From the NCBI RefSeq assembly GCF_024713945.1, contig NW_027461515.1, positions 62,001 to 126,000 of the forward strand: 64,000 nt of DNA, written 5' to 3'. A model generated the notes under the pieces. That model ran no database searches. It saw only the letters and a list, made by a program, of their open reading frames with translations, and was not told the origin of the DNA. This stretch comes from Dermatophagoides farinae. Lineage: Eukaryota; Arthropoda; Arachnida; Sarcoptiformes; Pyroglyphidae. This document shows positions 2,644-52,693 of the stretch, piece by piece. Positions within the stretch are counted from its first letter, which is position 1, and each line of letters begins with the position of its first letter. Position numbers and translations under genes: made by a program.

Positions 2644-4282
2644 ATGGACGAACGTCGTTATGGTAGACAAAAGGACTACAAGGCGTCCAAAAGCGACCCT
2701 AATGCTAGACGAGTTGAAGAACAAATCCGAATTCGTAAAACTATCAGAGACGCTGAACTAACAAAGAAACGTAACAATGTAAGTAATATTCGATGAAAAA
2801 TTGTAGATGGATGAAAATTCTTTGTTGTCTGAAGCTCAAGGACAAAGCAACGTTTATGTCAACCAGACAGATAACGACAATGAATCCAAGGTTCCGGACG
2901 TTTTTTTTTCAGATCCAATGACCATGCAAAAGCTGTTATCAAACAACAATGAAGATCAGTTTGATGTGATAAACAAAATGAGAATCGCTTTGTCTTGTCC
3001 ACAAGACCCGCCAATCGCTGAGTTTATCAGAAACAACTTTGTCAGGCCCGTAATTAATCTTATCGACGATCCCACTAAAACTACTGATATACTATTCGAG
3101 GCAGCTTGGGTTTTAACGAACATTGCTTCTGGATCATGTTCACAGGTTACTGAACTATTAAATGCAGGCGTGCTAACTCCTATGTACAAGCTTCTGCAAC
3201 ACGAGGTAATAACCATTGTTGAACAGGTCGTCTGGTTTGTAGGTAATGTCGCTGGTGATTGTGACAAGTGTCGAAAGCTACTTATTAACCAAGGGTTTCC
3301 TTCTGCAATTCTTCAAGTTCTACGTAACCAGCTTCCAATATCGAACAATACGTTGTTTATTGTAAGGATTATTGTATGGACACTGACCAATTTTACCCGA
3401 AGTGCAAAGTATTTAAAACCATCTGATCTAAATCAGTGGATAAATATTTTGAACGAGTTTTTGGTCTCTGTTGATCAAGAAATATTGAGTGACAGTTCAT
3501 GGTCTACGTTTTATATCTTAGATAGCTTTCTTAGCGGGGAACAAAACGAAATTATCAATATTTATATTAAATCGGGCTTAGCGAGTAAAATTATAGCTAA
3601 TCTCAAAACCGACCCACCAAACATATCATTGTCAGCTTGTTTAAGATCATTAGGAACTTTATTAACCGGAAACGACTCGCAAACTGATATATTGTTAAAC
3701 TTAGATTGCATTGAACCTCTCAAGAATTTGTTGAGTTCAAATAAAAAAGAAGTTAGACGAGAAGCATGTTGGGCAATTAGTAACATAACAGCTGGATCCA
3801 CTAAACAAATCCAACTTGTTATCGATAAAAACGTATTCCCCAAACTAGTGGAAATTTGTTACGACAGTAACTTTGATATTAGAAAAGAAGCCATTTGGGC
3901 TTTATCCAACGCATGTACCAGCGCTACAAAAGAGCAGATAGCGTATTTATTTGAAATTAACGTTCTTAAATGTTTTTCCAAAGAAATTAACTGCTTAGAT
4001 AGTAGTTTGATGAACGTTGTGCTCGATGCTCTCATTCGAATCATCACGATTGGTGACAAAGTGAAATTCGACTCGAATTTACCTTACAATCCGTTTATAA
4101 ACGCGATAGATAACGCGGGTATTTTGCGTCAATGTGAAATGATTATTTACGATCGTAAGCATGACCGCCTAACGCAAAAAGCAGAACAACTTATAAACCA
4201 CTGCAACGAGAGAACTAATCAGCAACAAATGGCGTTCACAGATTTCAACCATAATGGTTTTCAAGGAATGCCGATGCAATAA
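2644..4282 (+). CDS. KPNA: importin alpha (karyopherin alpha), one 28-base intron
   Basis: Nuclear import adaptor that binds classical nuclear localisation signals and hands them to importin beta. Exon 1 (2644-2778) encodes 45 residues that form the importin-beta-binding domain, with the basic run RRVEEQIRIRKTIRDAELTK and KKRNN; exon 2 (2807-4282) supplies the armadillo repeats. Typical repeat cores are AAWVLTNIASG, VVWFVGNVAGD, IIVWTLTNFTR, ACWAISNITAG and AIWALSNACTS, whose Trp and Asn ladder makes the signal-binding groove. Removing the intron keeps phase 0 and restores the domain that exon 2 alone lacks. The total is 536 residues, normal for the family. The gene is followed by 260 bases before the convergent neighbour. 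Confidence 0.93.
2779..2806 (+). other. 28-base spliceosomal intron in importin alpha
   Basis: Starts GTAAGT and ends TTGTAG. It contains the only in-frame break between the importin-beta-binding exon and the armadillo repeats, and removing it keeps phase 0. Confidence 0.92.
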
Positions 4283-4542
4283 ATCAATATTTAATTAGCA
4301 AATATATATTCAATGACTAAGCTTTACGTTTTTTCTGCTTTTATTCATATATAAAGTAAGATTTTCCATAGTTAAGGAGCGTTCCAAAAAAAACTACGTA
4401 TTGCTATAAAAATCTTTACCACAACTAGGAACAATTATTATGCAGAGCATTCAATGTCTATGGAGTACTACAAACTACATTCAGTTATATTTAATAATTC
4501 AAATTAATACAAAGAATTTAATAATAAGTTAGTCCTTAGCTC

Positions 4543-6402
4543 TTAGATAAGCACAAATTCTGAATTTAGCAAATTCTTAATTTCATAGCCCTTGGTGAAC
4601 GCATCTTCGTAGCTTTGCGGATCGTAAATTGAATTTCGAACATTTTTCAAGAGCGCGGTAGGCTTTTCGTCCATGAAAAGAGAAACCTTAACCGACCCGA
4701 AAACTGATTTATCAGTAACAGAGTTTTTTAACTTTAACTCCGATTGTATATAGTTTGGAATGACCTGATCCAGTTTTATCTTTACATTACCTGAAGCAAG
4801 CGACGTGAACAAATTGGATTCTAACGCAATCACCTCATATTGGTTTCCTTGATTTTCATATCTCCAACTTAGCGATTTATTAAGTTTATTAATAAACGAC
4901 TTACGCAGTTCGTACGAGACTTTTGACAAAAACTCAGAAACAGCGTCAGACGATCTCGTTTTAAAAAATAAGAGATTGTCGTTTTGCGCTAGCAATGCTT
5001 CGCATCTACTTTCGATTCTTTTTTTGTAGTTGCTAAATAATTCTTGGAAATTAGTGTTAAGTTTTGACCGAGACTCGAGCAAACACGAAAGTTTTGTTGA
5101 TTCGTATAGCCTATCTAAAAGCGCTTTATTCAACTCGACATCCTCTGATAATTCAAGTGATTCGAGAGTCTTTACTTTGATCCAAATGTCGTTTGCGCTG
5201 TCTGATAATTGAATAATACAGTTGGGATTTGCCAAATAACGCTGTATTCGACTGCAATAAAAATCCCGTAAAAAACATGAAATACCAGGGTTTACAACCG
5301 TTTTTATGATATCAAACGATGCTGCCAAGAGTACTTTACGAATATGACAATCTACTTTAAAGATTTCTTTCAACTGACTTTCTCTGGATGGGTTCAAAAC
5401 ACAGTAATCGTTAACTGCCTTTAACATAGTATTGTAAAATTCGTTCATAACAATTGCAAACTTTGTTTGGTCATTGTACGCTTGAAATCCTATTTCCGGA
5501 ATCGCATTTTTCGGAAATATGTTATTGTCGACACAGAACTTTTTGACCTGAACCAAAGAAACCAGAGATTCGCGAACTTCTGCCAAAAACGATAAAGATC
5601 CAGGAAACATTTCCAACATGTATTGAGGATTGCGCAGCATGAGTTCTTGGCTTTGATCTGAATTAGCAATATTTTTACTAATAGACAATTCATTATTGCT
5701 TAAATCGTCTTCGCTTAAATAATCGTCAAAATTATTGAACTTAAACATAATAGTTTCGTTTCGATTAAAAGGACTCGCTTTGCTTGTTGACAAAGCAAAA
5801 TCATTGGATTGATTTCGCGATCTTTTATTTTGAATAGAACCTTCCTGAGTAGACTGACGTCTTTTGGATCGCGAGCTGTCGACAGAAACTTCGTTTTTCC
5901 CGTATTTTGCAAACATATCTCTAAACACATTGCCCAAAGACATTAATTTCGACACCTTTGACATATCAATTCTAGACAAGTAATCCACAATACTACTGTC
6001 AGGGCTGACGAATGGTTTCAATTGAGCTATAAAGTACAGTTTTTCACGCTTGTCTTGAGGTAATTTGTCGAACTCGTCATACTCAAGCTCTGAAAACTCA
6101 GTTGGCAAAACATCTCCTGATCCGGAAAAAGTAGGGCGTCGATTTTTCGGAGCCCTACCATTTTTAAAAATGTCAATATTTTGTCCAAGCTCTGTTATAT
6201 TCGCATAATCAAAAAAATTTTTTTGCGGAGAAACTCCAGCTTCGGCGTTAAATATTTCATCTTCATCCATCATATTCTTTTGAATTTTAAACTGATTTGG
6301 TGGAGAAACATTCATTGAATTTCGCCGTCTAGAAGCAGATTTATTGGTTATATAATCATTAACGTGTGATGAAGAAGCTGAAAATGAAAAATCATTATTC
6401 AT
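4543..6402 (-). CDS. hypothetical protein, 619 aa, disordered N-terminus
   Basis: I do not recognise this 619-residue protein. The first 250 residues are Ser, Asn, Asp and Arg rich with basic clusters such as SRSKRRQS and QNKRSRNQ that could act as nuclear localisation signals. From about residue 255 it becomes a folded, mostly helical domain with no membrane segments. The start is the ATG at 6402; the codon before it is TTG. It converges with importin alpha on one side and is divergent from EF-1alpha on the other, sharing a 256-base promoter region. A nuclear regulatory or chromatin role is only a guess from composition. Confidence 0.7.
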   Translation of the reverse strand: MNNDFSFSASSSHVNDYITNKSASRRRNSMNVSPPNQFKIQKNMMDEDEIFNAEAGVSPQKNFFDYANITELGQNIDIFKNGRAPKNRRPTFSGSGDVLPTEFSELEYDEFDKLPQDKREKLYFIAQLKPFVSPDSSIVDYLSRIDMSKVSKLMSLGNVFRDMFAKYGKNEVSVDSSRSKRRQSTQEGSIQNKRSRNQSNDFALSTSKASPFNRNETIMFKFNNFDDYLSEDDLSNNELSISKNIANSDQSQELMLRNPQYMLEMFPGSLSFLAEVRESLVSLVQVKKFCVDNNIFPKNAIPEIGFQAYNDQTKFAIVMNEFYNTMLKAVNDYCVLNPSRESQLKEIFKVDCHIRKVLLAASFDIIKTVVNPGISCFLRDFYCSRIQRYLANPNCIIQLSDSANDIWIKVKTLESLELSEDVELNKALLDRLYESTKLSCLLESRSKLNTNFQELFSNYKKRIESRCEALLAQNDNLLFFKTRSSDAVSEFLSKVSYELRKSFINKLNKSLSWRYENQGNQYEVIALESNLFTSLASGNVKIKLDQVIPNYIQSELKLKNSVTDKSVFGSVKVSLFMDEKPTALLKNVRNSIYDPQSYEDAFTKGYEIKNLLNSEFVLI

Positions 6403-6658
6403 CAAGCTATTTATTCACCATTAATCATTAAAAAATAAAAACAAAGAAATCCAGAAATAACAAAAATTACTGCTATTAAATATTTGTGATAAAATCTGAA
6501 AGTTTTAAAAAGCTTAAAAAAAAAGCCACACAGAAACTATAAAGAAATAAACATAAAAAAACCTTAACAAAATTTTTTAATTATGCTTTGCATCAAAACG
6601 GGAGGGACAAAACAAAAACATTAAAAATTATTTAAGTTTATTTTATCAATCATTAATT

Positions 6659-7975: not shown

Positions 7976-8146
7976 ATAATTTTTTTTTTATTTTTGTATT
8001 ACTTACGCTATTTTTTTATAATTTTGTTTTATTTTCACAATTTAAAATAAATGATTATTTAAGTAAGTTACGATTATAATTTTAATCAGTTATAATAAAA
8101 AACTTAGCATTTCTAAGCATTCACTCAGCTTACATTAGATTACAAT

Positions 8147-11100
8147 ATGTTCAAGGAATCTTTGAGCGTTTATAACACAATAGATGTAAGTCATTCACCG
8201 AGTTATTTGTAGTTGTCGTCTATTCAAGCAAATGGGTCAATCTATAATCGAGCAGAGTACTCAGGAGACAGATTTCTTACAACTATATCTGCTTCAAATG
8301 GGCAAGCTACTTCTTTCAACTTTATTGACCTTTACGATAATTTGGAGATAGAGTCAAAGAGCTCAGCAAAAGTGTCTATGCTTCTTAAACATCATTCTGC
8401 TCCCTTTCTTATTTGCATAGCAAATAAATCTGAAAGTGTGAAAAACAGTCAGTTGTTACAAGTGTTTAATATCGAAAATAAGGTTTTAATTTTTGAACAT
8501 GAATTTTTAGATAAAATTTTACTTTGTACTTGGAAATTTTTTGATCTACTTGTGGTTGTAACGGAAAAACATGTTTACCACTGGAATTGTAAAGATCCAG
8601 ATAACTCCCTTTTATCTAAGTTTTTTGATATCACTTTAGAACTTTCACACTTGGACATTAAATATTTAATTTATGAGGTAGATTCTAAAAACGACATAAA
8701 TTTATGTACCGTTACCGTTACTTATTCAGAGTCAAACGGTTTGAAATCGCAAGCACAGCTATACTCAGCTAAGACAAATTTTTCAGAAACTTTTGATGCT
8801 GAGTGTGTTACATTTAGTGAATTTAACTATAAAAATCAACAAAAGAAATTTATCACTTTTATCAGAAAAGAACCAAATGGAGATAAATATTTATATATTA
8901 CTGATATATACAAACAAGGCGAAAATGATACAGCTCTGTTTAATTATAAAACCGCCGTGAGCAGAAACAATTTGTCTCTTAATGACATTTTTATAAACTT
9001 ACATCACCTTACTTTATGGGGATTACTAATTGCTGTCTCCATCAATGGTTTAATTACGATATTTAATGTTCATTCAGGAAAACTGATCGATCAAATCGAT
9101 ATTAAACAGAATGTTAATTTTTCGTTTATTATCACTAATACAAGCAAAATTTGCGTAGTTACTGCAAACGGCAAACTATTATACTTAAAACTCGATCCCA
9201 CGGAAGTGATAAATAAAACAAAGAATAATCTTTCTGCAGAAGAAGCTAGCTTTTTATCGTTAACCTATAACTATCCTGACTCTCTTACAAAGAATATTGA
9301 AATCTTCAATCAAAAATTATTCTCAAATGAAATTTACGATGCCGCGTTGATTTGCGTTTTGTCAAAAACTAAAGCTATGCGAACAAAAGAATATATCAAT
9401 AAGTTTAAGACGTTTTCACAAGATCAGAATATAAAATCTGCGATTCATACGTATTATCAAATTATTTTTGAAAAAGAATGTCAATTTAGTACAGACGAAT
9501 TTTTAGATCTGTTGGAAGCTATAATTTCACATAAAAAGTTTGTTTTAATAACGGAATTTTTAGACCAAAACAAGCTTGAGGCTGACAAAATTTATGGAGA
9601 CATTCTTTTATCTCATGATCCTGAACTAGCGAAACGATTTTATCGATATTCTAAAAGTCACGAAAAATTTGTTGTCGCTTGCTTAAAGGATGGAAATCGT
9701 GAAGATCTGATAAATTACTTAACTCAGAACAAAGATAATATTGACGTTGCCAAGTTGATATGCAATGTATCTGAACTCAATCTGACTAATTTGCCAAAAT
9801 TCATTACAATAGCTTTAGAAAACAAATTATTTTTTTCATCTGAATACGAGCTGCTTCAGTTAATGCTAGCAAAAAATTTTAAATTTGAAGCTGCAACAGT
9901 TTTCTCCGGGTTAGCGAAATCAGGATCTTATCCACGACAAGTTGAGATTGAAACCGAGTTGATTTCTAATGCGTTTAAAACGAATTGGAGAGCTGCTCAG
10001 CTTTTGTTAAATGATTCGATTTTAACGAAGTTTGATAGAGATATAGTATCAGATTTGTGTTTAAGTCATGGCTTAACTAAAGAAGCAGCTACTCTCTGCA
10101 CTGATAATTTTAAACTAATAGAGATTATTACTTCTTCACCCAATCATACTGCAGATGTAATTGAAGCAGCGGTCAAGAGATTAACTACAGATGAGATCAA
10201 TAAAGTGCTAAAAATCGTATTTAATAAAAACTTCCCTGTAATCAGTATTTTATTATCTTGTATTGCGAAGAATATTGATAGGTTCGACGTCGATAGTATA
10301 TTTAAGATTTTAGACGCTAATTTGAACAGATCACATTACTTGGAATTTTTAAAAGATGTTTCCTTGAACCACGATAACATAACGACTAATACGTTGTACC
10401 TAGAATTCGTAGTGAACAATAACAATTGGGAAACAGCTTCAGATATTATTCAATCCGATCGGTTAATTAACATTTCGGAAATCAAAACACTGTTAGAATC
10501 TAAGAATAATGTTCCTTCCGTTTTGTTGGTAAAATTTTACATGAAATACAAGTTCACATCAGATTTAATAACACTTTTAGTAAAAATTTCTGATTACTCA
10601 AACATTGTCAACTTAATTCAAACTGGTGACAAGGAAACTGTTTTGAATATTTTGAGAACGTTAAAATCACAAACTATTTTGCCTAATTTACTAACAAAAA
10701 GCATAGATGCCGCTTCTAAAGTTTGTTCACCCGATGAAATACTAAAAATATACTGCGAAGAAGAATATTTTTCTATTTTGCTAGATTGGGCAGAAAGTAA
10801 ACTTTACTCCAATTCAGAAAACAAAGAACTAGCCAACTTTTTAGCTAAGGTTTACATTCATCTAAACAAAGCTCCCGAGTTGTTTTTACGTAGTAATGAA
10901 GTCTACGATCCACTATCCATCGCTCAATATGCAGAGAAAAAGAATTTGACTTTAGCTCTCATAGCATACGAGAAAATAGATGCTGTCGACGAAATATACA
11001 GAATTTCTAGTTCAAATAACATGCAAAGCTATTTAGCTGGATGTTTACTTAATCCTAAGTTTAATGCACTTTGGGAGTTGGCATTTTCTGATTCGACGAA

Positions 11101-13306: not shown

Positions 13307-15401
13307 TTAATAATTATAAGTGTATTTATTGTAGATTTTGTGATCCAGTCCACTTACTGTCAAGTAACTCGAAGGTTTGTAATTTCCAAAGTTATTTATT
13401 TTCCAACCTAAACTATTATTGTCAAAATAGAACTGATTTTGCCAATCTAGTTTATTTTGATGACTTAGCCACAAAGATTCTGAATAATTTTTAATGTTTC
13501 GATAAGAAGATTGCAACAAAAAGTAAATAATGTTCCTAAATAGTTTTTTTTAAATAAACTTACAAAATAGCTCCAATGATTGATAGATCCGAAAAATCCC
13601 AAAAATACTTTTTTTTGATTGAATTCTTGAAACGTAAAAATATATGCGATCCAGGTCGAACTGTTTCATAGAAGGTGACGTCTGTTACCATAGCTCTGAA
13701 TGTTCGTAAAGTCATGTAAATGGTGAAAGTAGTTACTAATGTGTTGATAAGCGATATTACAATTAAGAAATAGTAGAAATGAGGAAGTTTAAATATTTTT
13801 AATATTCCTAGACTGTGCTTTATCATTAATTTTTTTTTGTCATGAGATGCCCAAAACAGATTTTTTATCAATTTAAAAAAAACTTCATAATAATGTTTCT
13901 GATAATATAGCAGACAACACAAGTGGAAAACAAACGCTCTTTGATTATTTAAGCCTATACAATTATCTAACCAAGTGCAGTGATGATCAAATTTATCGAT
14001 GCAATAACCACAATCAGTACAATGCTTGGCCCGACAATTCTTCTCGCTTTTACAAGTATAACAAAGACCACTATTGGGCTCATCAGCAGGTAGAATTTTC
14101 ATAATATAATCCTTATCAAGAAGTGAACATCTTTCAGAAAATATATCTTTGACTATGACCCGCATTTGCTCTCGAATAGCATCTCTTTCATTTAAAAACA
14201 TATTTTGCCCATATTCAATTTCACTATCAGACATTTGAGAATTGCGCCAAACACCATTGTTGAAGTTGACGACGAGTTTTTTAATTTCATATTCTTTCTG
14301 TATTAAACCGATTATATGACTATTCGAGTAAGTAGTGTATTGTTTCTCGCGATCAATATAATTTTCAAGTTCAGTTTGTATGTTAGGACTAACTTTTTGA
14401 AAATAAGTTTTTTTTTTAAATTCAGATGCTTGTATTGGAGGTTTGTTTTTTATGTATAAATAAGAATAATAGGTCAAAGATGCAACTAAAAATTTTTTAA
14501 TTCCTAGGCCATACCAAAAAAACTTTTTTTCAAGCCTAGCTACTTTGAGCGACATCAGCGGAAGTAATACGTACATCAAGGTGAAGTATAAAAAACCAAT
14601 AAATCCAAAAATACTTTTAAACTGAATTTTAAAATTCATTCTTTCAAACAGTTGTATGAAACAAAATGCTAAAAATGTTCTGTAGTTTCTTGTTTTATAT
14701 GCTAATATAGCAGGTGTGGCGTTCTTATAATCTATTGAAACGCTATTTAATAAAGGTCGTGCTCCAGCTTTTAGTAGTAAGGGAAGCATATTGGTTGTGC
14801 CTGTAACAGCAACAGTGTGTAAAACCGAGCGAAATTGCATGTCTCTGTGCCCTATATGGGCCTGATGAGACAGTAACCATTGTACAATAATAAGAGATTT
14901 TCTCGAGATGGCCAGTTGAAGCGCTGTTTGTCCATATATAGTAATATCTTCTAATGAAAATCCTTGTAAATATAGCCATTCAAGTAAAAACAAAATTCTA
15001 TTAGCGTCATGATCTGGAGCTTCGCTACAAATTGTCATTAATATATTAGAAGCATTTATATTATAAACGTAAAGAGTATGAAATCCATATCTCTGAGCTA
15101 CAAATTGTATAAACTGTATGTTCAAAGATCTAGCCGCATAATGCAAAGCAGTATCACCTAAGTTGTCTGCGTGAAATGGTGAGCAATTAAGTTCTATAGC
15201 CTTCATCCACAATTCTTGATCGTTGAACCACACAGATAAATGAAGAACCAACGTGTCTTCTAAAATGGGAAGATCATTTAAGTGAGTTACAAATAGTTCT
15301 TCCGCTGTTTTTTTAAAAGCAGAAATATTGTTTTCTTTGCAATAGGAAATTAACTCCGATCTGATATCTTTTACAGGATCATAACATTGGTAGTTGGACA
15401 T
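13307..15401 (-). CDS. ankyrin-repeat DHHC palmitoyltransferase, one 28-base intron
   Basis: Protein S-acyltransferase of the Akr1/ZDHHC13-17 type, a multi-pass Golgi or endomembrane enzyme that attaches palmitate to cysteines of cytosolic proteins. The 688-residue product begins with ankyrin repeats (roughly residues 65-240, for example DNLGDTALHYAARS and IYGQTALQLAISRKS), then two membrane segments, the cysteine-rich domain with CYTCKSEKNCRAKHCTDCGYC, the catalytic DHHCTWLDNCIGLNN, and two more membrane segments. Exon 1 is 15401-13564 and exon 2 is 13535-13307; splicing continues the frame in phase 2 and adds 76 residues after the last hydrophobic stretch. It converges with clathrin, 33 bases from its stop. 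The general call is secure; the orthologue is not. Confidence 0.9.
13536..13563 (-). other. 28-base spliceosomal intron in the DHHC gene
   Basis: On the minus strand it starts GTAAGT and ends ATTTAG. Removing it carries the frame past an immediate stop into a 76-residue C-terminal tail. Confidence 0.85.
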
Positions 15402-23025: not shown

Positions 23026-23368
23026 GTATTAGTAACTTTTAATCAATAATAAAAAGATCCAAACTGTAATTTATTACGGATTGTTTATGGTTGTTTTTTT
23101 GTTTTTTCAAAGCTAGCCGCCTTAAAAATTTTTGGCACTTTTTTGAAAAAAAATAATATATCAAGGATTATCAGAAAATCTTTAATTATAAAAACATATT
23201 CTGATAAGTAATCTACTATTAGTTCCTTACAACTGTAATTTATGAATTATGCAAAGACACTTTGTCAATTGAAAAAAAAGTCCGTTTTGAATTTCGAAAA
23301 GTAAAAATTTCAAAAATTTATGACCGCCAAAACCGCTACCATGCATTACTTATTATTTAATTTCTCTT
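23026..23368. other. intergenic region upstream of tRNA-Leu, nothing seen
   Basis: About 340 AT-rich bases with several homopolymer runs of A or T between the start of deoxyhypusine hydroxylase and tRNA-Leu. No coding frame or structured RNA was recognised; it must contain the hydroxylase promoter. Confidence 0.45.
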
Positions 23369-23448
23369 GGCAACGTGGCCGAGTGGACTAAGGCGCCGTG
23401 TTTAGGCCGCGGTCCGAAAGGGCGTGGGTTCGAATCCCACCGTTGTCA
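23369..23448 (+). tRNA. tRNA-Leu (anticodon UAG)
   Basis: Class II tRNA of 80 bases. The acceptor stem pairs GGCAACG with CGTTGTC (one G-T wobble), the D arm carries the A-box TGGCCGAGTGGA, and the T arm carries the B-box GGTTCGAATCC. The anticodon stem CCGTG/CGCGG closes the loop TTTAGGC, giving anticodon UAG, which reads CUA leucine. A variable arm with GAAA loop follows. CCA is not encoded, as usual in eukaryotic nuclei, and there is no intron. A T-rich run about ten bases after the end can serve as the RNA polymerase III terminator. Confidence 0.95.
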
Positions 23449-23556
23449 TTTAAATATTTTTTTAAGTTTTTTATTTTCATTAGGTTGAATTTTATTCTAG
23501 AATATTGAAATCGAAAATTCATTCTTCTTTTTGATATTAATACATTTTATCTTTGT

Positions 23557-26179: not shown

Positions 26180-26789
26180 CTATTTAGAACGCTTTTTTTG
26201 TTTTTTTACTGTTTTCTTTGTTCTACTTTCACAGCTGATGTTAGCCCGTAGTTTATTTTTAATTTCACGAAGTTTTTGCGCACTTTTCATATACATCTTT
26301 TGTTTTTTTTGTTCCTCGAATGGATTAGACATAAAATCCTCATTAGCAGAATACTCATAAATTATGTTTCGCTTTTCAGCAGCTTTTTTGATTGATTTAG
26401 TACCCCATCTCAACTTGTAATCGTTGTCGACTTCGTCGTAAACAAGTCGACTTCTTCGCGGGTCTTTTTCAATTCTTTTAGATTTAGCGAAAATTTCCCA
26501 TTTCGTTTGCATTTTTTTCGCTGTCTTCGGGATAGGCATAGCGCGCGGAAGAGCAAATTTACGCTCACAAATGGGTTGTAAAACTCCAAATACTCCGTGC
26601 TCGTTTGTTTCTCTTGGCAATTTATGCAAAAGATTTAAAACAAAGGTTTTTGCAACTTCTTTCACTGACTTATCAAGCTCTCTAAAAAATATATCAGTTT
26701 CTTACTTACTCTATGGAGTTAGCAGTTTCAGGAGAAACTTCAACAGGCGAGGTTGCTATTAAAGAATGATAACAACATTCTAAATTCAT
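26180..26789 (-). CDS. RRS1: ribosome biogenesis regulator RRS1, one 28-base intron
   Basis: Nucleolar protein needed to load the 5S RNP into pre-60S ribosomes, where it partners RPF2. Exon 1 (26789-26710) starts at ATG and supplies 26 codons plus two bases; exon 2 (26681-26180) completes 193 residues. The family core is clear: FALPRAMPIPKTAKK, then TKWEIFAKSKRI, SRLVYDEVDNDYKLRWGTKS. The C-terminus is a Lys/Arg-rich tail typical of nucleolar assembly factors. Splicing restores an N-terminal helix (ELDKSVKEVAKTFVLNLLHK) that matches the family but would otherwise start at GTG. Yeast RRS1 is 203 residues, so the length is normal. Confidence 0.9.
26682..26709 (-). other. 28-base spliceosomal intron in RRS1
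   Basis: On the minus strand it starts GTAAGT and ends TTTTAG. It joins exon 1 (phase 2) to the RRS1 body and gives the frame an ATG. Confidence 0.88.
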
Positions 26790-31212: not shown

Positions 31213-31758
31213 CTAATCTTTTGGTTTGTTAAACTTTTTGTAGAGTTTTGAATGTTTTATTACAAATAAGCAGATAAATTTATTCGATGACTCCTCCTCC
31301 ATAATCAGTTTTTGGTAGTTATCTATTTCAAACGGTATTTTAAGCTTGAAGTCTTTCAGTTGTATTTCCTAAAAATATAGTTTTAAATTTACACTTACGT
31401 TTGTATCTCTAATGTATCGGCACTCATATTCGTCAAACAACTTTTTGGCTATGTATTTATCGTGTTCGGTCAGTGTAACTGAGTCAGATATTTCATTCAA
31501 AAACTGGTAAAAAGTTTCGCTCTTTAAACAAGTTTCGAACGATCCCGCATATTTAAATGCATTTTTATATATGTTTTTTGACGTTTCTGGATAAACTTCA
31601 TATTCATTTGAGAAGTCTGAGCTTTTTTTTTTTTCAACCAAACCGTGAATCGTCTGATTTTTCCCCAAAAAAATGCCGTTTTTAAAAAACTTAAAATTGT
31701 TGGTATTCAATTCATTCTGGTCTTTCTTCGTGACTTTTCCGGTGCAATTATCAGTCAT
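31213..31758 (-). CDS. hypothetical protein, 171 aa, one 30-base intron
   Basis: I do not recognise this protein. Exon 1 (31758-31399) encodes 120 residues and exon 2 (31368-31213) another 51 after removal of a 30-base intron in phase 0; without splicing the frame ends at an intronic TAG after a few aberrant codons. The product is soluble and charged, with a probable helical bundle around residues 65-115 (KNAFKYAGSFETCLKSETFY, HDKYIAKKLFDEYECRYI) and a Lys-rich end. It lies just downstream of polymerase alpha on the same strand, 82 bases from its stop codon. It may be a small subunit of a larger complex, but that is conjecture. Confidence 0.65.
31369..31398 (-). other. 30-base spliceosomal intron
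   Basis: On the minus strand it starts GTAAGT and ends TTTTAG, phase 0. Its own final TAG would end the frame if retained; removal adds a 51-residue open frame. Confidence 0.78.
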
Positions 31759-36559: not shown

Positions 36560-36893
36560 GTCATCGTCCAGGCTAAATGCAGTGTGTCAGATGATAAACT
36601 TACCTTTCTTTTGTTAGGTCTTGTTTTTTCTGAAACTTGGGATAATCTTTTTGTTTAGAGCTTCGTTTTCGCTGCTTCTGCACGCTTGTGGTTTTTACAA
36701 TGTTACGCTTGGGATTATTTTGCTTTTTGGGTTTGAATGATTGATCGTTCTCGTTGGCTATGGCTAGTCTAACGGCTTTAAGTATCTCACTTTCTGTCGG
36801 TTGTTTGTCTTTGTCATATCTGATAATCACAGGGACGAACACGACCTGTTCTCCGTTGACTTCACCCCGGACAGCTAGACCTTTGTTAATCAT
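36494..36893 (-). CDS. small basic protein with FoP-like C-terminal motif, one 31-base intron
   Basis: Exon 1 (36893-36604) encodes 96 codons plus two bases; after a 31-base intron, exon 2 (36572-36494) brings the total to 122 residues. The N-terminal part is compact (GEVNGEQVVFVPVIIRYDKD), the middle is strongly basic (Lys, Arg, Gln rich, residues 50-95), and the exon junction creates ESLDDDLYHYFAHQ. That last motif resembles the LDxxLDxYF element shared by mRNA-export proteins of the ALY/REF and CHTOP type. This is suggestive, not decisive. The 3' end overlaps the extended form of the plus-strand gene at 36214. Confidence 0.55.
36573..36603 (-). other. 31-base spliceosomal intron
   Basis: On the minus strand it starts GTAAGT and ends ATTTAG. 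Splicing in phase 2 creates the LDDDLYHYF motif at the junction. Confidence 0.75.
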
Positions 36894-37230: not shown

Positions 37231-38095
37231 ATGAGTAGCACTGCTGATATATTATTCATAGCAATTCCTACTGTGTGCACTGTATCGGTAAGTAAAATTG
37301 TTCAGAAATGTTGTTTAGGTGTTGATTGTAGTTATTTTTTATTTCGCAAATTTATCAAGAAAAAAGTCAAAATTCAATGAGGAGAAGCATCGAAAGGCCC
37401 ATCTCGACGAGGAAATTTACAAGGCGGAAGATGAAAAGTTAGCCATTTTGGCAAAGCATATTGGGCTGAAGAAACTTGAGCGCAAGCGTAAGCTCAAAGA
37501 AAATGCGCAAAAAGAAGCTGCGAAAATGCACCAACAAGCCCAAAATCCTGTGATGTGGAACGGTCAATATCCAGTGAATCAAGTTGAAATCCCTGTGATC
37601 ATTGATGCCGGTATGGTACCACCGCAAAACCAAAATCCTGGCGTTTATCAGTATACTCCAGAAGTGTGTGGCTGCCAAGAGCCTAACAACATCATGTATG
37701 CACAACAACCACAAGTGGCATATCATCCTGTTATCGATCAACCACATCCCGCAGATGTTTTTGTCAGTCCAGTTATCGGATATCCGCCTGTTTCCGTTGT
37801 TGAACAACAATATCAGCCTCAACAATATATGATTGAGCAGCAATACCAGGCGCAACCGTCCGTGGCAGAACAACAACATCGCGCTCAGCAGTACGTGCAG
37901 GAATCTCCCTTAATGCCTGACAACTATCAGCATGTTCAAGCTAACCTTGACTCTGCTGACATTTATTTTTCACCTGCAACGAAGAAGGAGGATTTGCCAA
38001 AGTGCCCGCCTCCTGAGGTGAAAGAAGGGTACGTAGTGGTACCTATGGTAATGACAACTAAGAAAAGCTTCAAAAAAAAGAAAAAAACTAAATAA
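37231..38095 (+). CDS. single-pass membrane protein with Pro/Gln-rich tail, one 31-base intron
   Basis: Exon 1 (37231-37287, 19 codons) joins in phase 0 to exon 2 (37319-38095), giving 277 residues; the intron lies inside the coding sequence of the single membrane segment, whose halves are ILFIAIPTVCTVSV and LIVVIFYFANL. A basic, Glu/Lys-rich predicted coiled coil follows (residues 30-85). The rest is a Pro/Gln/Tyr-rich disordered region with imperfect repeats of the type EQQYQPQQY, EQQYQAQPS and EQQHRAQQY, then a Lys-rich end. I know no family with this layout. A short lumenal or extracellular N-terminus and a cytosolic tail are likely from the positive-inside rule. It precedes the alternative oxidase on the same strand. 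Confidence 0.75.
37288..37318 (+). other. 31-base spliceosomal intron
   Basis: Starts GTAAGT and ends GTTTAG, phase 0. It interrupts the coding sequence for the membrane segment; joining the flanks produces one continuous hydrophobic helix. Confidence 0.87.
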
Positions 38096-41493: not shown

Positions 41494-41496
41494 AAT

Positions 41497-44348: not shown

Positions 44349-44351
44349 ACC

Positions 44352-44825: not shown

Positions 44826-44866
44826 TGAAATCTAAATAGTTTTTTAAATTTTAAATAAATATTATT

Positions 44867-45247: not shown

Positions 45248-45428
45248 CTAAATATTGATTAAATTTTATCAGCAGTTATATACTAATAACATTATGCAGT
45301 GCTTTGATAGATTTAGCAAGTCAAATAAAATAGTGTTTGAACAATGTTTATAGGAAAACTTCTTTGTGCATTTTTACACAGCTAGTTAATTAGTGTTAAC
45401 TGATTTGTTTAAGTGACAACTCGTAAAT

Positions 45429-46478: not shown

Positions 46479-46485
46479 AATAATA

Positions 46486-46557
46486 AGACGCTACCGGGGT
46501 TCGAACCCGGAATCCCCAGTTTCGTAGACTGATGCCATACCATTAGGCCATAGCGCC
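46486..46557 (-). tRNA. tRNA-Arg (anticodon ACG)
   Basis: 72 bases on the minus strand. The acceptor stem pairs GGCGCTA with TAGCGTC with one wobble; the D arm (GGCCTAATGG) and the T arm with loop TTCGAAC fit standard A- and B-box sequences. The anticodon stem TCAGT/ACTGG encloses CTACGAA, giving ACG, which reads CGN arginine after A-to-I editing. No intron and no encoded CCA. Confidence 0.92.
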
Positions 46558-46794
46558 TAACGATTCAATTGAAATATAATTAATTCTTGTAAATTGAACT
46601 GTGACTTGTTTATACATGCTAATGAGTAATTATTTATCAAATCGCTAATAACAAAAATTTTAATTTTTTACAATTTTATCGCAACAATTCCCAAGTTAAA
46701 CATCTGATATCGTTAATGCGAGAAGCAGATATGCATTTATACGACTTTTGAAACGCGATTTCCTACGGCAGCTAATGCCATTTAATTAGCTAGC

Positions 46795-46866
46795 GGCCGT
46801 TTGGTCTAGTGGTATGATTCTTCTTTAGGGTAGAAGAGGTCCTGGGTTCGATTCCCAGAACGGCCC
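46795..46866 (+). tRNA. tRNA-Pro (anticodon AGG)
   Basis: 72 bases. The acceptor stem pairs GGCCGTT with AACGGCC; A-box TGGTCTAGTGG and B-box GGTTCGATTCC are present. The anticodon stem CTTCT/AGAAG encloses TTAGGGT, giving AGG, a proline tRNA that reads CCN after A-to-I editing. The body closely matches typical eukaryotic tRNA-Pro. A T run follows within 20 bases as a possible terminator. Confidence 0.93.
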
Positions 46867-46963
46867 CATATTGTTTTATTTATCGTTTTTTAATTTAGGC
46901 TTAACAAAATAAAAATTATTTTTTTATTTTAAGCTTTTAGTCTTCAAAAGTAAATGAGATTCC

Positions 46964-47377
46964 ATGAGTGAGAATGAAATATTAAATAATTTAAGCGACG
47001 CAGATGACTTTAACAGCGATTTCGATAATCTAAGCGATGCTTCTTTGAATAATCAAACAAATGATGACATAAACAGCAGTATCATTTTCCCTGCTGAAGA
47101 CGAAACTAACCATCGCCCTAATACACGTCCTGCAATCGGTGCAAGAAAAACATCTCCCTACATGACACGATTTGAAAAAGCTAAATTGATCGGAACGAGA
47201 GCATTACAAATCAGCTTGGGCGCTCCGTTGACGGTTCAAGTTGATTGTGAAAGTGATCCAATTATCCTTGCGGAAAGAGAACTTATCGCCAAAACTATTC
47301 CTTTCATTGTTCGAAGATATCTGCCCAACGGCGAGTACGAAGACTGGAGTGTATCAGAACTGCTACTAAATAATTAA
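46964..47377 (+). CDS. RPB6: RNA polymerase common subunit RPB6 (RPABC2)
   Basis: Small subunit shared by RNA polymerases I, II and III, which stabilises the clamp and core assembly. The 137-residue protein has an acidic, disordered N-terminus (residues 1-50) and the conserved C-terminal fold: TSPYMTRFEKAKLIGTRALQ, ISLGAPLTVQV, then DPIILAERELIAKTIPFIVR and RYLPNGEYEDWSVSELL. This matches the family nearly residue for residue, and the length is normal (human is 127). It lies 97 bases downstream of tRNA-Pro. No intron. Confidence 0.97.
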   Translation: MSENEILNNLSDADDFNSDFDNLSDASLNNQTNDDINSSIIFPAEDETNHRPNTRPAIGARKTSPYMTRFEKAKLIGTRALQISLGAPLTVQVDCESDPIILAERELIAKTIPFIVRRYLPNGEYEDWSVSELLLNN

Positions 47378-47557
47378 AATTCTACACATTCACCTGATTT
47401 CAATTTATAATTTTCTATAATCCAATATTTTCAAACTGCTCAGCATTTTATCTGATTTCTTTAAATATTTTTTTTCTTAAAAATTATTTAATCTTAGTAT
47501 TAATTTTTTTATCCAACTCTTTAGCAATTTATATAGTGGATAATTTTTCTGCATGGC

Positions 47558-49486
47558 ATGTCGTACTTCTTGATTAAAAAAGTTAATTCGAATAATCATG
47601 TGGAGGACAAGATAAGCATCGAGTTAGAAGAAAAGATTGATGATAAAACGTACAATGCAGAATCCATTGTTCAGGAAATAAGCTGCAACGAAAAAGCTCT
47701 TCGAGACCGCGTAGGCATTGAAAAATTCTTGCGAGCGTTTGGTACAGCTATTGTAGCGTTTTTGCCGAACATTTTGCTGTTACTCCAGACATATCTATTT
47801 TTGTTGAATTTTAATGGTAAGTAACTAGCTTGAAAATTTTATAGTTAAAAAATTACACGTTCTGTTACTTGTCGAACTGACACTTCACTATTTGTTGATT
47901 TTGATTTCTATTTGTTTATACCACACGAATGAACACATTTGGAGGGCGTGTAGTTTGGACATGTCAATAGCCAAGTTCAGTATATTGGCTTTTTTCACAG
48001 TAATTCTGATTCGCATCTTACTGATATTTTTTTTACTGATGATGCCTGCTTATTTCACCTATTGGACTACTTTTGAGATTTTGTTTATCACTATTTTTAC
48101 TTTTACATCCTTAGCAGTGAACTGGCACGCGATATTCAAACCATTGACTTGGTCTCTTAGAAACCGTTTTGACAAAGTATTAAAGTCAAGTTTACAAATT
48201 CGAAAAACACTGGTTTACTCGCTTGTAATTTTTATTTTTTCAGTATATGTGTTGAGAATGGTTGATTTTTTTCAGCTCCCCACTTATTTGATACTTTTAC
48301 TGATATCCCACGTCAATTTCTTGGATAAAATAAAGATAAAGACAAACGTTTCAGTAAATTCTATGTGTTTGTCGTTTAGCGCGATTTACCAATACGTAAG
48401 TTTGTTTCGACTCCTAGGCGGATCGCTGCTTTCACTAGCACTGGTGAAATGCTTGCTAAATTTCAGAATGATGCTTAATAACATACTTTACGCGAACTAT
48501 CTTACAAATAGCAATGAAATTCTCATTGCGCTGAACTCTGCCCACATCGATTTGCAGCAGCTCGCACTGTTCATCGCTAACAACTGTTTGAGCGATTTGG
48601 ACCCAAGCTATTTCAAAAACGGGAAACCCAATTTTGTCGAACACGAATCTAAAATTATTTGTACGGATTCTAAACAATACTACGCAGTTCTAAACGAAAA
48701 GTTCGAACCATTGCATTATAACCTGTCTAAATCTTGGTATCAGCGTTTTGGTTCAGTTTTTCTAATTCTAGTCTCTCAAGTTCTTATTACAGTTTTCCCT
48801 AAAAGATTTGAAAGTTATCATTACTGCTCAGGCTCAAAAATAACTTCCTGTATTGCCATAAACAAGAAACACTTAAATGTACTTACGCCTGTGGCAGCAG
48901 CGTTCTTTGAACAGGAATCACTGCTCAAATTTAGCATAGAGAAAAAATGCAAAATGATCGTGCAAGAGTCAAAGATCTTTGTAGAACAAATATATGAGTT
49001 TTTCCAATTAAAGCCGACAAAGTCTACACGGGTAGTAGTTTTGCCTGCTATTTTGCTTCTCAATATGAAAAAAACATTATGCCGTTTGTTCTTAACTTCT
49101 GAAAAGCAGTTTCCTATAAACATAAAATATTTCGACCGAATCAAAGCATTAAGCGAACGATCTGGTTCGAACGTTCTATCTTATCGTGATTACTGCAAAC
49201 TAATGAAAGAATTATCTAATTTGCTCGTCGAGATTTTGACTTTAACGAACCTTGCGGAAAATCTTCTTTGTAAAACTAATCAATTAGAAAAACAACAACC
49301 CCCTGTCAATTCGAGCATTGATGATATCAGCCAACTAACTAAAGTAAGTTTAAACTGTTCTAATTTTTTTAGGCGATTAGCAAATTGTATAACTTTTTGA
49401 ATTTCGACGCTGAGCTGTCACGCTGGACGTCGAAAATTGTGAAAAAGCTAATCGAAGTTTGTCCAGCTATTCAAAGCCCTAAGTAG
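47558..49486 (+). CDS. multi-pass membrane protein, two short introns (NDC1-like layout)
   Basis: Three exons (47558-47816, 47845-49343, 49373-49486) give 623 residues. After an acidic cytosolic start of about 70 residues come about six membrane helices in the first 280 residues (AIVAFLPNILLLLQTYLFLL, ILAFFTVILIRILLIFFLLM, LVYSLVIFIFSVYVLRMV). A long soluble C-terminal half follows, with one more hydrophobic stretch (VFLILVSQVLITVF). Six N-terminal spans plus a cytosolic C-terminal domain is the layout of the nuclear-pore anchor NDC1/TMEM48, but no sequence motif confirms it, so I do not assign a name. Both introns are needed: the frame changes at each and stops shortly after without splicing. 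Confidence 0.75.
47817..47844 (+). other. 28-base spliceosomal intron
   Basis: Starts GTAAGT and ends TTATAG, phase 1. It joins two frames of the same membrane protein within its transmembrane region. Confidence 0.87.
49344..49372 (+). other. 29-base spliceosomal intron
   Basis: Starts GTAAGT and ends TTTTAG, phase 0. Splicing replaces a 19-residue unrelated ending by a 37-residue helical C-terminus. Confidence 0.75.
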
Positions 49487-49510
49487 CTAAATTTATTTAT
49501 GTAAAAATAA

Positions 49511-49891
49511 TTATCCAAAACCGGCGTACATGTTAGCTTCTTTGTGTGTGTAAGGGTTAGCCACATCATACAATACTTTTTTTGTTTGCCTTTTATGTGG
49601 TTTAGTTTTTAAGTGCGCTAAAAGAGTTTACATTTAAAAGAACTTACTTTCCAATGTTGCTGCGTTAGTAAAATTTCTGCAGCACGTTGCGCAGTAAAAC
49701 TCGCCGCAGCCAGGTAGATCGACATCTTGTTCCGGTTTCCAGCCCGATTGGAGCTGCTCAACAACTAAAAAATATATTTTTTTTTGCATACCTATATCTG
49801 CATCTAATTTATGACTGACTGATCGTTTATTCGTTCTTACAGCGTCGACGGAGTGATTAGAATTCGTTACTTTACGTTGCTTAACGCTCAT
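49511..49891 (-). CDS. BUD20: BUD20/ZNF593-type C2H2 zinc-finger protein, two short introns
   Basis: Shuttling pre-60S ribosomal export factor. Exons 49891-49792, 49764-49648 and 49617-49511 give 107 residues. The family signature spans the second junction: DVDLPGCGEFYCATCCRNF, then the zinc-binding histidines in THLKTKPHKRQTKK, completing a C2H2 finger whose second half is encoded only after splicing. The tail YTHKEANMYAGFG matches the conserved C-terminal YTxEEAExxxGxG element. The N-terminus is basic (SVKQRKV, RTNKRSVSHK), as in the family. The start is the ATG at 49891. The gene converges with the membrane protein at 49486, 24 bases between stops. The first intron is less certain than the second. 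Confidence 0.88.
49618..49647 (-). other. 30-base spliceosomal intron in BUD20
   Basis: On the minus strand it starts GTAAGT and ends TTTTAG, phase 1. It splits the C2H2 finger between its Cys and His pairs; splicing restores both. Confidence 0.9.
49765..49791 (-). other. 27-base candidate intron in BUD20
   Basis: On the minus strand it starts GTATGC and ends TTTTAG. It has no in-frame stop and its length is a multiple of three, so retention would just insert nine hydrophobic and basic residues. The non-consensus donor makes it the weakest intron here. Confidence 0.55.
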
Positions 49892-49941
49892 AAAATAATT
49901 TAGCCGCAAGATTTCGAAATATAAAATTTTGCCAAAAAAAA

Positions 49942-51984
49942 TTAATCTCGGGTACTGAGTAAAATAAAATACGCTAAAATTATTTCTAATTTTTTGTAAT
50001 TTACTGAATATAACTGAATTATCGGTTCTTTAAATTCATTGTCTTTTTCGTTGATAATCCTTATAGCTACCTTGCTTAGCGTTAAGTTTTTGTGTTCATT
50101 TATGTAGGTCACTAAACTTTCTACTAAAAAATTTACTTTTGAGTTATCTATAATAAAATCTACAATTAACAGTTCTGTCATCATGTAATGGTTGTTTTTC
50201 TTGCCAATAAGTTTGATGAAATTGATAAGATTTGATAATTTTTTGCACGATATCTGTGCCCCAACGCACTGTATTCCGTTGAAAACAATGTTGTAATCGT
50301 CTATAATCACTTTGATTGGCGAATCTTTCTGCGACAAATGGTAAATTAAACTGTTTGCAAAAGACTTGACTAAGATTACTTTTATGTTGTACTGGTTCTT
50401 ATTCGGATAGAAAAAAGTTTTATTCTGGATAGTGTATGTGCTGATTGAAGTAAACGTTACCAATTCTTCGTTTTCTTGCAATTGTGTATTTTCTATGTTT
50501 AAATCGCCAATGTCTATGTTTTCTTTATTCTTCAAATCAACGTAGGCTGGGTTCGTTTTTAATCTTGGCATCAGTTTGCCAGCGCAGGTCGTTTGGTATT
50601 GAATCGAAGTGCGGTTTCGCATCGTTGTGTTATTCATCATATCGTAAAGAGCTCTGTTGCCAGTGTTGTTCATTTGAGTCAGCGAACCATTCACATTGCT
50701 CACCGGTTCTACCTGCCTTACTGAATTCATATGGCTTGAAAAGTACGTGACAGTGTTGAATTTATTAAGAATTTTGTTTTCTTTGTTTTGCTTGTAGGGT
50801 TTGAGGCTGTCATTGGAGTCTGCAGAAAACATCATGTAAGACACAAACCCGTTAGAACCTATGTTAGCCTGTAAATTGGGATTTTTGAGCGTGACCGACG
50901 ATTTATCGTTTACAATGTCTAAAGCTTTTTTTTCTGTTATTTTACTAAGGGAGTCGTAGCCGTCGTCTTTATTGCTCGGCAACAATTTTTGATCAAATTT
51001 ATTTTTAATATTTGATTGAACATTTTCCTGGCTCAGCTGATTATTTAAATTATTACAAGAAGAGTTTTCATTTGTAATTATCCTTTGCATACATGTATTT
51101 GATTCATATATATTTATTAAGTATTTTAAAGGTTTTCTTTCTTTTTTAATATGTAATAATTTTGTATCTAATAAATTATTTATATAGTTTTGCTGATTTA
51201 ATCTTTTCGGTTGTAATTTGTCATCAGATAATACAGTATTACTTTGATTTATTCTATTGTTAAATTCTTTTAACTCGCTTTTAAACGGCTCTGATGCGCC
51301 TACGTTTCCCACGTTTTGTTTTTTCCGATTGCAATTAGTCGAATAATACTCTAACTTCTTTTCACTCTGACTTGACGTGTCCGATGATGGAAATCTTTGC
51401 AAACATATTTGATTGTTTTCTATGCTGAAGTGCATATCTACTCTGCTCGTTGCAGAGCTAAAATTAATACTACTTGGTCTGTTTTTAACGTAAGAATTAT
51501 GTTTCGGACTGGTGAAAGAAATTTTCTTGATTTCTTTCAATACGTGGCATTGAGCGTCATGTGTGCTTGGCACGTAAACATTTATCGGTTTCCCTGGCAT
51601 AGAATTGCACGGTTTAAATTTAGAGCCTGCGTTGTTGTGAGGAACAGGAGCTTTGACTTTGTTTTTTTGAAACTCTTCTTCCGGTGAACCGCTATTTTTG
51701 ATCGAATCTGGATTACTGTATTCTCCAGATGCACACTTATTCGATTTTTTTAATTTAGCCAGTGTAATTTTTTTGTTCCTTCCAAATTTGTTCAAACTTA
51801 GGAACTTTGTATTCAGCGGTTTTTCATTATTATTTTTCTTTGAAAAATGAATTTTGTTCGTGGTTGCAGAATTAGCCGATTTTTGAGTATTGCGCAATAT
51901 GACTTTCTCATGATTACTTGAGTTCGCAGAAATCGGACCTATTAACTGATATGGTAAGTAACTGTCTAAAAATTGCTCACCCAT
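49942..51984 (-). CDS. hypothetical Asn/Ser-rich protein, 680 aa
   Basis: I do not recognise this protein. About 500 of 680 residues are low-complexity, rich in Asn, Ser, Lys and Gln with basic clusters (KKITLAKLKKSNK), probably disordered. From about residue 510 the sequence becomes ordered, with alternating strands and helices (FTSISTYTIQNKTFFYPN, NIKVILVKSFANSLIYHL, LSKVAIRIINEKDN), a probable single globular domain of 160 residues. It lies 50 bases upstream of BUD20 on the same strand. A KENIDIG segment resembles a KEN-box degron, and the many phosphorylatable residues would fit a regulated cell-cycle or RNA-binding protein, but this is speculation. Confidence 0.65.
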   Translation of the reverse strand: MGEQFLDSYLPYQLIGPISANSSNHEKVILRNTQKSANSATTNKIHFSKKNNNEKPLNTKFLSLNKFGRNKKITLAKLKKSNKCASGEYSNPDSIKNSGSPEEEFQKNKVKAPVPHNNAGSKFKPCNSMPGKPINVYVPSTHDAQCHVLKEIKKISFTSPKHNSYVKNRPSSINFSSATSRVDMHFSIENNQICLQRFPSSDTSSQSEKKLEYYSTNCNRKKQNVGNVGASEPFKSELKEFNNRINQSNTVLSDDKLQPKRLNQQNYINNLLDTKLLHIKKERKPLKYLINIYESNTCMQRIITNENSSCNNLNNQLSQENVQSNIKNKFDQKLLPSNKDDGYDSLSKITEKKALDIVNDKSSVTLKNPNLQANIGSNGFVSYMMFSADSNDSLKPYKQNKENKILNKFNTVTYFSSHMNSVRQVEPVSNVNGSLTQMNNTGNRALYDMMNNTTMRNRTSIQYQTTCAGKLMPRLKTNPAYVDLKNKENIDIGDLNIENTQLQENEELVTFTSISTYTIQNKTFFYPNKNQYNIKVILVKSFANSLIYHLSQKDSPIKVIIDDYNIVFNGIQCVGAQISCKKLSNLINFIKLIGKKNNHYMMTELLIVDFIIDNSKVNFLVESLVTYINEHKNLTLSKVAIRIINEKDNEFKEPIIQLYSVNYKKLEIILAYFILLSTRD

Positions 51985-52251
51985 TTCAATCTGACTAGTG
52001 TTATCATTCTTTGTTCAATCTTTGTAAGGGAACTGGCTTATTTGAACTGAAGTCACACGATTATACATTTCATTAATATGTGTGTGGTTGCAACGTTTAT
52101 TCATGTTTATTTGCATTTAAAATTCTATAATCTATGTGCTAAAATTCGGATGTGTTAACAAAAAATCTAAACGAAGCAAAAAAACATTCAAATATACTAG
52201 GTTCAACTTAAATCGAAATTCCGAGCTACATTTACCGATTTTATATTAAAC

Positions 52252-52693
52252 TTATTTTTTTATTAGGTTGTGAAGTTTTTTAACTGTATTCAACACATTG
52301 TTCGAGTTTTTTGTTTTACACTTATATTTGGAATATGAAAAGTATTTCTTATTCATTAATTCACACAAATTCGAATTGAACAATATATTCTTAATTACGT
52401 CAGAATTTGTAAAAAGTTTTTTTTCAATTATTCTATTTGCATCAAAATATAGATTTTCCTCTATCAAGTTTAATTTAAAAAGTTTTTTCTCATCGAGTAA
52501 TTGCACTTCAGTATCGTCTACAGCTTTTTACGTTTTCAAACTCACTATCAGATACCTCATATGCTGACTTATCAGGTTCATTTTCAAAATTGATCAATCT
52601 CTCAAGAAACGACGAGTAATCGAAGTTTTCTGGTCCAAGAGCTCTAACAAAAAGACTTAATGCAAAAACGATCCCTCTTCCATAATAGATCAT
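52252..52693 (-). CDS. hypothetical protein, 137 aa, one 28-base intron
   Basis: Exon 1 (52693-52546) and exon 2 (52517-52252) join in phase 1 after removal of a 28-base intron with donor GTGAGT, giving 137 residues from an ATG at 52693. Without splicing there are two adjacent fragments in different frames, the second lacking an ATG. The product starts with a hydrophobic stretch IVFALSLFVRAL that could be a signal anchor, then is mixed charged and helical with a Lys/Asn-rich end. I do not recognise it. Its role is open. Confidence 0.6.
52518..52545 (-). other. 28-base spliceosomal intron
   Basis: On the minus strand it starts GTGAGT and ends CTGTAG. It links two frames that are otherwise separated by a stop; the donor differs from GTAAGT at one base. 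Confidence 0.7.

Follow-up and report, generated by a model that had tools for sequence, protein, structure and literature searches.

Ultrashort candidate introns on scaffolds of a probable apicomplexan cobiont within the genome assembly of the mite Dermatophagoides farinae

Thirteen GT-AG gaps of 27-31 nt interrupt predicted genes in a 64,000-nt stretch of contig NW_027461515.1 (C12:62001-126000 in our numbering of the contigs, hereafter the window), which is part of the 62.4-Mb, 22-contig genome assembly of the house dust mite Dermatophagoides farinae. We conclude with considerable confidence that these gaps, 12 of which have good frame evidence, represent ultrashort U2-type introns of an apicomplexan, most likely a gregarine, whose DNA constitutes the small scaffolds C11-C21 of this assembly. 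The positions of the gaps, their GT-AG ends, the restoration of reading frames, a peak of lengths at 28 nt, the concentration of such spans on C11-C21, apicomplexan marker domains, and a Prp8 domain on C14 were all observed directly.

All 13 gaps listed in an earlier sequence-only reading of this DNA were found where it had placed them (by low coordinate), five on the forward and eight on the reverse strand. Their lengths are 27 nt (two gaps), 28 nt (five), 29 nt (two), 30 nt (two), and 31 nt (two), and each of them begins with GT and ends with AG. The same reading had counted 11 GTAAGT donors, one GTATGC, and one GTGAGT, with most ends being TAG, and these counts are reproduced here: the two unusual donors are those at 49765 (GTATGC) and 52518 (GTGAGT), and 12 gaps end with TAG and one with CAG (28338). 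The window contains 13 spans of the form GTAAGT..TAG that are 27-31 nt long, compared with 2.16 (standard deviation 1.48) expected from 100 dinucleotide shuffles of the window, the largest of which gave seven and none of which reached 13. Ten of the 13 spans belong to the listed gaps, and the extra ones lie at 1831-1857 (-), 56545-56572 (-), and 63710-63738 (+), the first and the last of these being antisense to long open frames. Retention of the gap breaks the frame in 12 of 13 cases, nine gaps not being multiples of three and three more adding an in-frame stop.

Matches of the spliced proteins to Pfam families provide further evidence for the importin alpha, RRS1, and zinc finger genes. The IBB domain of importin alpha, which the sequence-only reading regarded as rejoined by splicing, is indeed matched at residues 8-98, across the junction at residue 45, and the RRS1 match covers residues 3-170, with the junction at 26.7. 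Similarly, the proposal that splicing rejoins the C2H2 finger of BUD20 is borne out, as zf-C2H2_jaz matches residues 56-81 of the spliced BUD20/ZNF593 protein across the junction at 72.3, the protein with the intron retained matches no family, and BUD20 and ZNF593 chains were also recovered. The clathrin alignments begin at residue 24 or later, past the junction at 13, and the TRM10 match (Pfam tRNA_m1G_MT) occupies residues 132-218, away from the junction at 28; since both matches start downstream of the junctions, they fit splicing and do not probe it. For the gaps outside the importin alpha, RRS1, and zinc finger genes the evidence consists of frame and form. Taken together, these observations indicate that the 13 gaps are very probably spliceosomal introns. 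That a minority of them are chance GT..AG gaps among genuine introns is a serious possibility, although we rate it somewhat below an even chance: splicing keeps or extends the open frame at each gap, and the gap lengths fit the scaffold-wide peak described below, whereas chance should supply about two GTAAGT..TAG spans in each window, the gap at 49765 is open if retained, and those at 36573 and 49344 give just 24 and 37 codons.

We searched the whole assembly for GTAAGT followed by TTTTTTAG at total lengths of 15-26, 27-39, and 40-69 nt. The scaffolds C11-C21 contain 4, 43, and at most 16 matches in these classes, respectively, and C1-C10 contain 26, 17, and, among the places listed, 95. In the longest class, the 100 listed of 111 places include 95 on C1-C10, three on C11, and two on C14; as they are listed in contig order, the other 11 should lie on C14 or later, hence the upper bound of 16 for C11-C21. 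Of the 60 matches of 27-39 nt in the assembly, 43 thus fall on C11-C21, and by length they include three of 27 nt, 11 of 28 nt, nine of 29 nt, four of 30 nt, and four of 31 nt. Expressed per length step, the rates on C11-C21 are 0.33 (15-26 nt), 6.2 (27-31 nt), 1.5 (32-39 nt), and at most 0.53 (40-69 nt), which sets the lower edge of the distribution at 27 nt and its peak at 28 nt. In 184 kb of C12-C21 with 114 occurrences of GTAAGT, TAG was found at 28-33 nt in 31 cases, compared with 5-15 in each of 17 other 6-nt bins; no 28-33-nt peak was seen in 78 kb of mite sequence, but this contained only 28 GTAAGT.

A gene finder run with low penalties produced 128 "introns" of every length, which it used as connectors, and a candidate scorer with over-strict cut-offs chose none of 388 candidates. 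With relaxed cut-offs the scorer picked 36/107 for GTAAGT, compared with 16/133 for TGAATG, 34/205 for GTTTGT, 39/185 for GTTGAA, 25/112 for GAATGT, and 29/137 for TGAAGT. The useful difference is in length, as 15 of the 36 GTAAGT picks fall into the 28-31-nt bin, versus one to four in each of the five control donors.

The description of these introns as a genome-wide set in the sequence-only reading is therefore valid for the scaffolds C11-C21 and invalid for the assembly, since C1-C10 are without such a peak. The same distribution bears on the idea that the gaps are assembly errors or developmentally excised DNA elements, with which the broken or scarce long frames in sampled stretches of C13 and C17 would be compatible. 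We consider it very improbable, because errors would not share a GTAAGT start, an end in TTTTTTAG, and a 28-nt length peak across ten scaffolds.

The contigs C1-C10 total 58.83 Mb and are those of the mite; a different D. farinae assembly, made from egg DNA to limit microbes (PMC8487952), has a similar size of 58.78 Mb, which is in line with a cobiont origin of the remainder. Two more D. farinae assemblies in a published table have 60.39 Mb and 91.9 Mb. The 11 small scaffolds C11-C21 amount to 3,593,788 bp, and C22 (14266 bp) looks mitochondrial from its open frames read with the invertebrate code. The original paper describes GCA_024713945.1 as 21 scaffolds, 10 of which are pseudochromosomes, from which sequences with BLAST matches to microbial RefSeq (E <= 1e-50) had been removed as microbial (PMC11074847). 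Diverged protist DNA could slip through such a filter.

In composition, 12 sampled stretches of C12-C21 resemble the window closely (4-mer correlation of 0.975-0.992) and the pooled mite stretches less so (0.851-0.906), and five mite stretches correlate with the window at 0.799-0.901. Similarly, the correlation of codon use with the window is 0.83-0.97 for C13-C21, the lowest values coming from small samples, and 0.71 for the mite. AP2 domains were detected above the cut-off on C14, C16, and C19, with no match reported in C1-C10, and the alveolin domain (IMCp) gave a single match, on C14, and none in C1-C10. Judging by AP2, alveolin, composition, and codon use, the owner of C11-C21 is an apicomplexan, a cobiont left in the mite assembly. 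The alternative that the introns are the mite's own, so that an animal would possess a genome-wide set of 28-base introns, has in its favor the deposition of the window within a mite assembly. It is hardly credible in view of the differences in composition and codon use, of only three matches of 27-31 nt in the 58.8 Mb of C1-C10 versus 31 in C11-C21, and of the mite rate per length step, which rises from 1.3 (27-39 nt, 17 matches) to 3.2 (40-69 nt, 95 matches), the opposite of the trend on C11-C21. A mite origin of the window was thus rejected on composition, codon use, AP2, and the distribution of intron-like spans. A fungus or a dicyemid as the owner was also dropped: the contigs with animal 18S and U6 are distinct from C12, and AP2 and alveolin matches occur only on C11-C21.

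Within the apicomplexans, the owner is likely a gregarine, as suggested by its gene content and intron length. Cysteine-repeat proteins were spotted by eye on C20 (L026:5575-7074, -) and C21 (L027:39-614, +), the latter at the extreme start of the contig and apparently incomplete. We take them to resemble oocyst-wall (COWP-like) proteins, for which Pfam gave no support (a sub-threshold cEGF match for the C20 protein and nothing for the C21 protein). Scaffold C19 encodes a protein combining an acyl-ligase, an acyl carrier protein (ACP), and a ketosynthase. These proteins are compatible with a Cryptosporidium-like or coccidian parasite instead of a gregarine, as is the failure to find a cobiont 18S gene, and we regard such an owner as unlikely, yet deserving attention. 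COWP-like proteins and the acyl-ligase-ACP-ketosynthase protein are common to Cryptosporidium, coccidia, and gregarines. Intron length points away from the first two, as the 28-bp mode is that of the gregarine Porospora, whereas the median introns are 65 bp in C. parvum and 467 bp in T. gondii (PMC9250747). A gregarine associated with a mite has a precedent in Caparinia, where 18S amplified from the mite turned out to be that of a gregarine (PMC6321676). An Rfam search of 14 cobiont loci (133 kb) yielded nothing above the gathering score, and a PDB search with leucyl-tRNA synthetase was of no taxonomic help.

Several observations weigh against parts of this interpretation. The introns are known here from DNA sequence alone. 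Cobiont 18S was not found with the one universal pattern used, and the gregarine label is consequently derived from gene content and the length of the introns instead of a tree; moreover, the median intron of Gregarina niphandrodes is 95 bp, so not all gregarines have the short class (PMC9250747). The reversed-pattern control was commoner than the pattern assembly-wide in each class (547 vs 60 at 27-39 nt, 309 vs 30 at 15-26 nt, and 1553 vs 111 at 40-69 nt); the total counts thus prove nothing, and the evidence lies in the spread over contigs and the lengths. At higher penalties the gene finder returned 31, 15, and 9 introns for GT-AG, within the ranges of 25-34, 11-16, and 7-9 for four control dinucleotide pairs. 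C1 has 9,170,000 bases versus a published maximum of 9,172,953, and the sequence may be a trimmed version. Finally, C11 fits less well than the other small scaffolds: its 4-mer correlation, taken from a subtelomeric stretch, is 0.903, its AP2 match is below the cut-off, and its GTAAGT..TTTTTTAG matches of 27-39 nt are 30, 31, 33, and 33 nt long, with none at 28 nt. Its codon-use correlation is 0.947. C11 is therefore a less certain member of the cobiont set and may need separate treatment.

The spliceosome genes belong to the same balance. On the one hand, C14 has an open frame of 2341 aa that encodes a Prp8 domain, and a separate mite copy is present on C7. On the other, U2 (three copies), U6 (two copies), and SF1-HH (one partial match) were found on mite contigs only, the RNA searches having scored the best 46 of 3769 U2 candidates and the best 48 of 7910 U6 candidates. 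As the scaffolds are possibly incomplete and only the best candidates were scored, the absence of U2, U6, and SF1-HH says little. It leaves open a reduced spliceosome in the cobiont, by analogy with that described in mikrocytids (PMC10245619). A bolder version, in which C11-C21 would be roughly the whole 3.6-Mb nuclear genome of a mite gregarine with a reduced spliceosome (U2, U6, and the SF1 helix-hairpin being unrecognisable or absent) and the branch would be set by the distance of an A-rich stretch to T-TAG and not by a motif, seems improbable to us. If it were true, this genome of about 3.6 Mb would be the smallest apicomplexan genome known to us.

Signals within the introns were analyzed in a set of 20, formed by the 13 from the window and seven from outside it that were hand-picked by GTAAGT..TAG form, a length of 27-30 nt, and frame. 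In one of the seven (C18) a nearer TAG was taken than the scorer's best acceptor, and candidates such as those of 32-42 nt were dropped; given this selection by form, the ends and lengths of the set are not independent evidence. T occupies positions -3 and -5 in 19/20 introns each, a T-rich tract extends from -8 to -3, and A is found at -11 in 15/20. In 2000 shuffles, an equally A-rich column appeared at some position 27 times, and A upstream of T to the observed degree was never obtained. Among 39 pattern-selected introns of at most 34 nt the excess of A extends over several positions, with A in 19-23 introns at -9 and at -11 to -13 and in 14 at -10. None of 12 branch-point consensus forms exceeded shuffles in the 20 introns, in agreement with the sequence-only reading, which had seen no constant branch-point motif. 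Its opinion that so short an intron leaves little room for a branch point and a polypyrimidine tract is not upheld, since the peak of A-richness at -11 is followed by the T tract. The words AAACT (6/20 introns, 0.68 expected) and AAAC (9/20, 2.0 expected) are among the most enriched, with no correction for the number of words.

These features suggest a possible mechanism, in which U1 would pair with GTAAGT and U2 would pick an adenosine in the A-rich stretch approximately 9-13 nt before the acceptor, with the peak at -11. The branch adenosine would then lie about 16-20 nt into a 28-nt intron, and the T tract with TAG would serve as the first usable acceptor after the branch. The narrow range of lengths could reflect the minimal donor-branch and branch-acceptor spacing tolerated in a compact genome.

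The closest known system is that of the marine gregarine Porospora cf. gigantea A and B, where the median intron is 28 bp [27-30], the mode is 28 bp, and the 25-30-bp class comprises 71-72% of introns (PMC9250747). Like the putative owner of C11-C21, Porospora is an apicomplexan with a compact genome, a mode of 28, and a class of about 25-30 bp; here, 31 of the 43 matches of 27-39 nt on C11-C21 have 27-31 nt. The two differ in GC content (54% in Porospora, 33% in the window) and apparently in the number of genes with introns, 2957 of 5270 in Porospora genome A (PMC9250747) and seemingly fewer here, where the window has 33 frames of at least 150 aa and the introns fall in 11 genes. A further difference speaks against a close correspondence: the strongly conserved A located 6 bp before the acceptor in Porospora (PMC9250747) is lacking here, where this position has A in 2/20 and T in 14/20 introns, and A reaches 8/20 at -8, counting from AG. 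C11-C21 would add a second gregarine-like genome in which intron lengths peak at 28 nt, at 33% instead of 54% GC and without the conserved A of Porospora; the comparison suggests that it is the length of the introns that is maintained, rather than their sequence around the branch site.

Introns of 27-31 bases, placed by the sequence-only reading near the lower limit known, are not at that limit, since shorter ones are described in several groups. The 20-bp introns of Babesia microti, also an apicomplexan, are said to share the consensus features of Porospora (PMC9250747). The mikrocytids (16-17 bp), the chlorarachniophyte nucleomorph (18-21 bp), and the heterotrich ciliates (15-16 bp) have likewise narrow length ranges and are unrelated (PMC10245619). 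In contrast to the introns studied here, those of mikrocytids are highly conserved in sequence (PMC10245619). The ultra-short introns of Paramecium, an alveolate but a ciliate, are of similar size, about 25 bp (PMC5014332).

Introns of this kind are thus already known in the probable lineage, and the misattribution to the mite together with the overlooked 3.6-Mb parasite is the more useful result. About 11 scaffolds in a reference genome used for allergy research come from a parasite that seems not to have been reported before, and the gene lists, "mite" proteins, and genome-size claims derived from it need re-examination. A literature search that covered few subscription papers turned up no mention of apicomplexan DNA among D. 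farinae assemblies, and in it the accession GCA_024713945.1 was named only by its original paper. The individual features of the window are collected in Table 1.

Table 1. Candidate introns and tRNA genes of the window, with the evidence bearing on each
Position	Strand	Feature	Evidence or remark
2779..2806	+	Intron, 28 nt, phase 0; importin alpha (the IBB domain starts in exon 1)	Frame broken if retained; Pfam IBB spans the junction
8186..8212	+	Intron, 27 nt, phase 0; clathrin heavy chain N-terminus	In-frame stop if retained
13536..13563	-	Intron, 28 nt, phase 2; ankyrin-DHHC palmitoyltransferase C-terminus	Frame only: 612 codons upstream from ATG, 76 downstream
26682..26709	-	Intron, 28 nt, phase 2; RRS1 ribosome biogenesis gene	Pfam RRS1 spans the junction; retained frame ends after 1 codon
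28338..28366	-	Intron, 29 nt, phase 0; TRM10-like gene; sole CAG end	Frame
31369..31398	-	Intron, 30 nt, phase 0; unassigned protein	In-frame stop if retained
36573..36603	-	Intron, 31 nt, phase 2; short basic protein	Frame only; 24 codons downstream
37288..37318	+	Intron, 31 nt, phase 0; small protein with hydrophobic start	Frame only; ATG 19 codons upstream
47817..47844	+	Intron, 28 nt, phase 1; hydrophobic protein (first of two)	518 open codons spliced vs 2 retained
49344..49372	+	Intron, 29 nt, phase 0; hydrophobic protein of 47817 (second)	Frame only; 37 codons downstream
49618..49647	-	Intron, 30 nt, phase 1; within the C2H2 finger of BUD20/ZNF593	zf-C2H2_jaz across the junction once spliced
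49765..49791	-	Candidate intron, 27 nt, phase 1; BUD20 5' part; GTATGC donor; weakest of the 13	Multiple of three, open if retained; domain matches do not decide
52518..52545	-	Intron, 28 nt, phase 1; unassigned protein; GTGAGT donor	Frame
56545..56572	-	Possible extra intron, 28 nt; 5' untranslated part of RPA1-like gene	Form and length only; beyond the 13 listed
23368-23449	+	tRNA-Leu (TAG)	Cobiont gene
46485-46558	-	tRNA-Arg (ACG)	Cobiont gene
46795-46867	+	tRNA-Pro (AGG)	Cobiont gene

Outside the window, the C19 protein mentioned above corresponds to a 2174-residue frame cut by the end of the locus (L025:2-6523, -), whose AMP-ligase, ACP, ketosynthase, and dehydratase units point to a type I fatty acid or polyketide synthase. 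Cover by long frames is only 0.25 in one sampled locus of C17 (L023, C17:20001-30000) and 0.48 in one of C13 (L019, C13:20001-30000), where adjacent frames overlap; decayed genes, sequence errors, or intergenic DNA could each account for this. The 18S 3' motif occurs at five places far apart on mite chromosomes (C1:7402582, C1:9127883, C4:4959700, C5:2842575, and C8:41639), and rRNA genes were confirmed at four of them (L011-L014). The first 1030 bases of C11 (positions 1-1030 of L018, C11:1-10000) form a telomere-like array with 144 copies of CCTAA, the next base being C in 100 of them and A in 44, and the start of C11 may therefore be a chromosome end.

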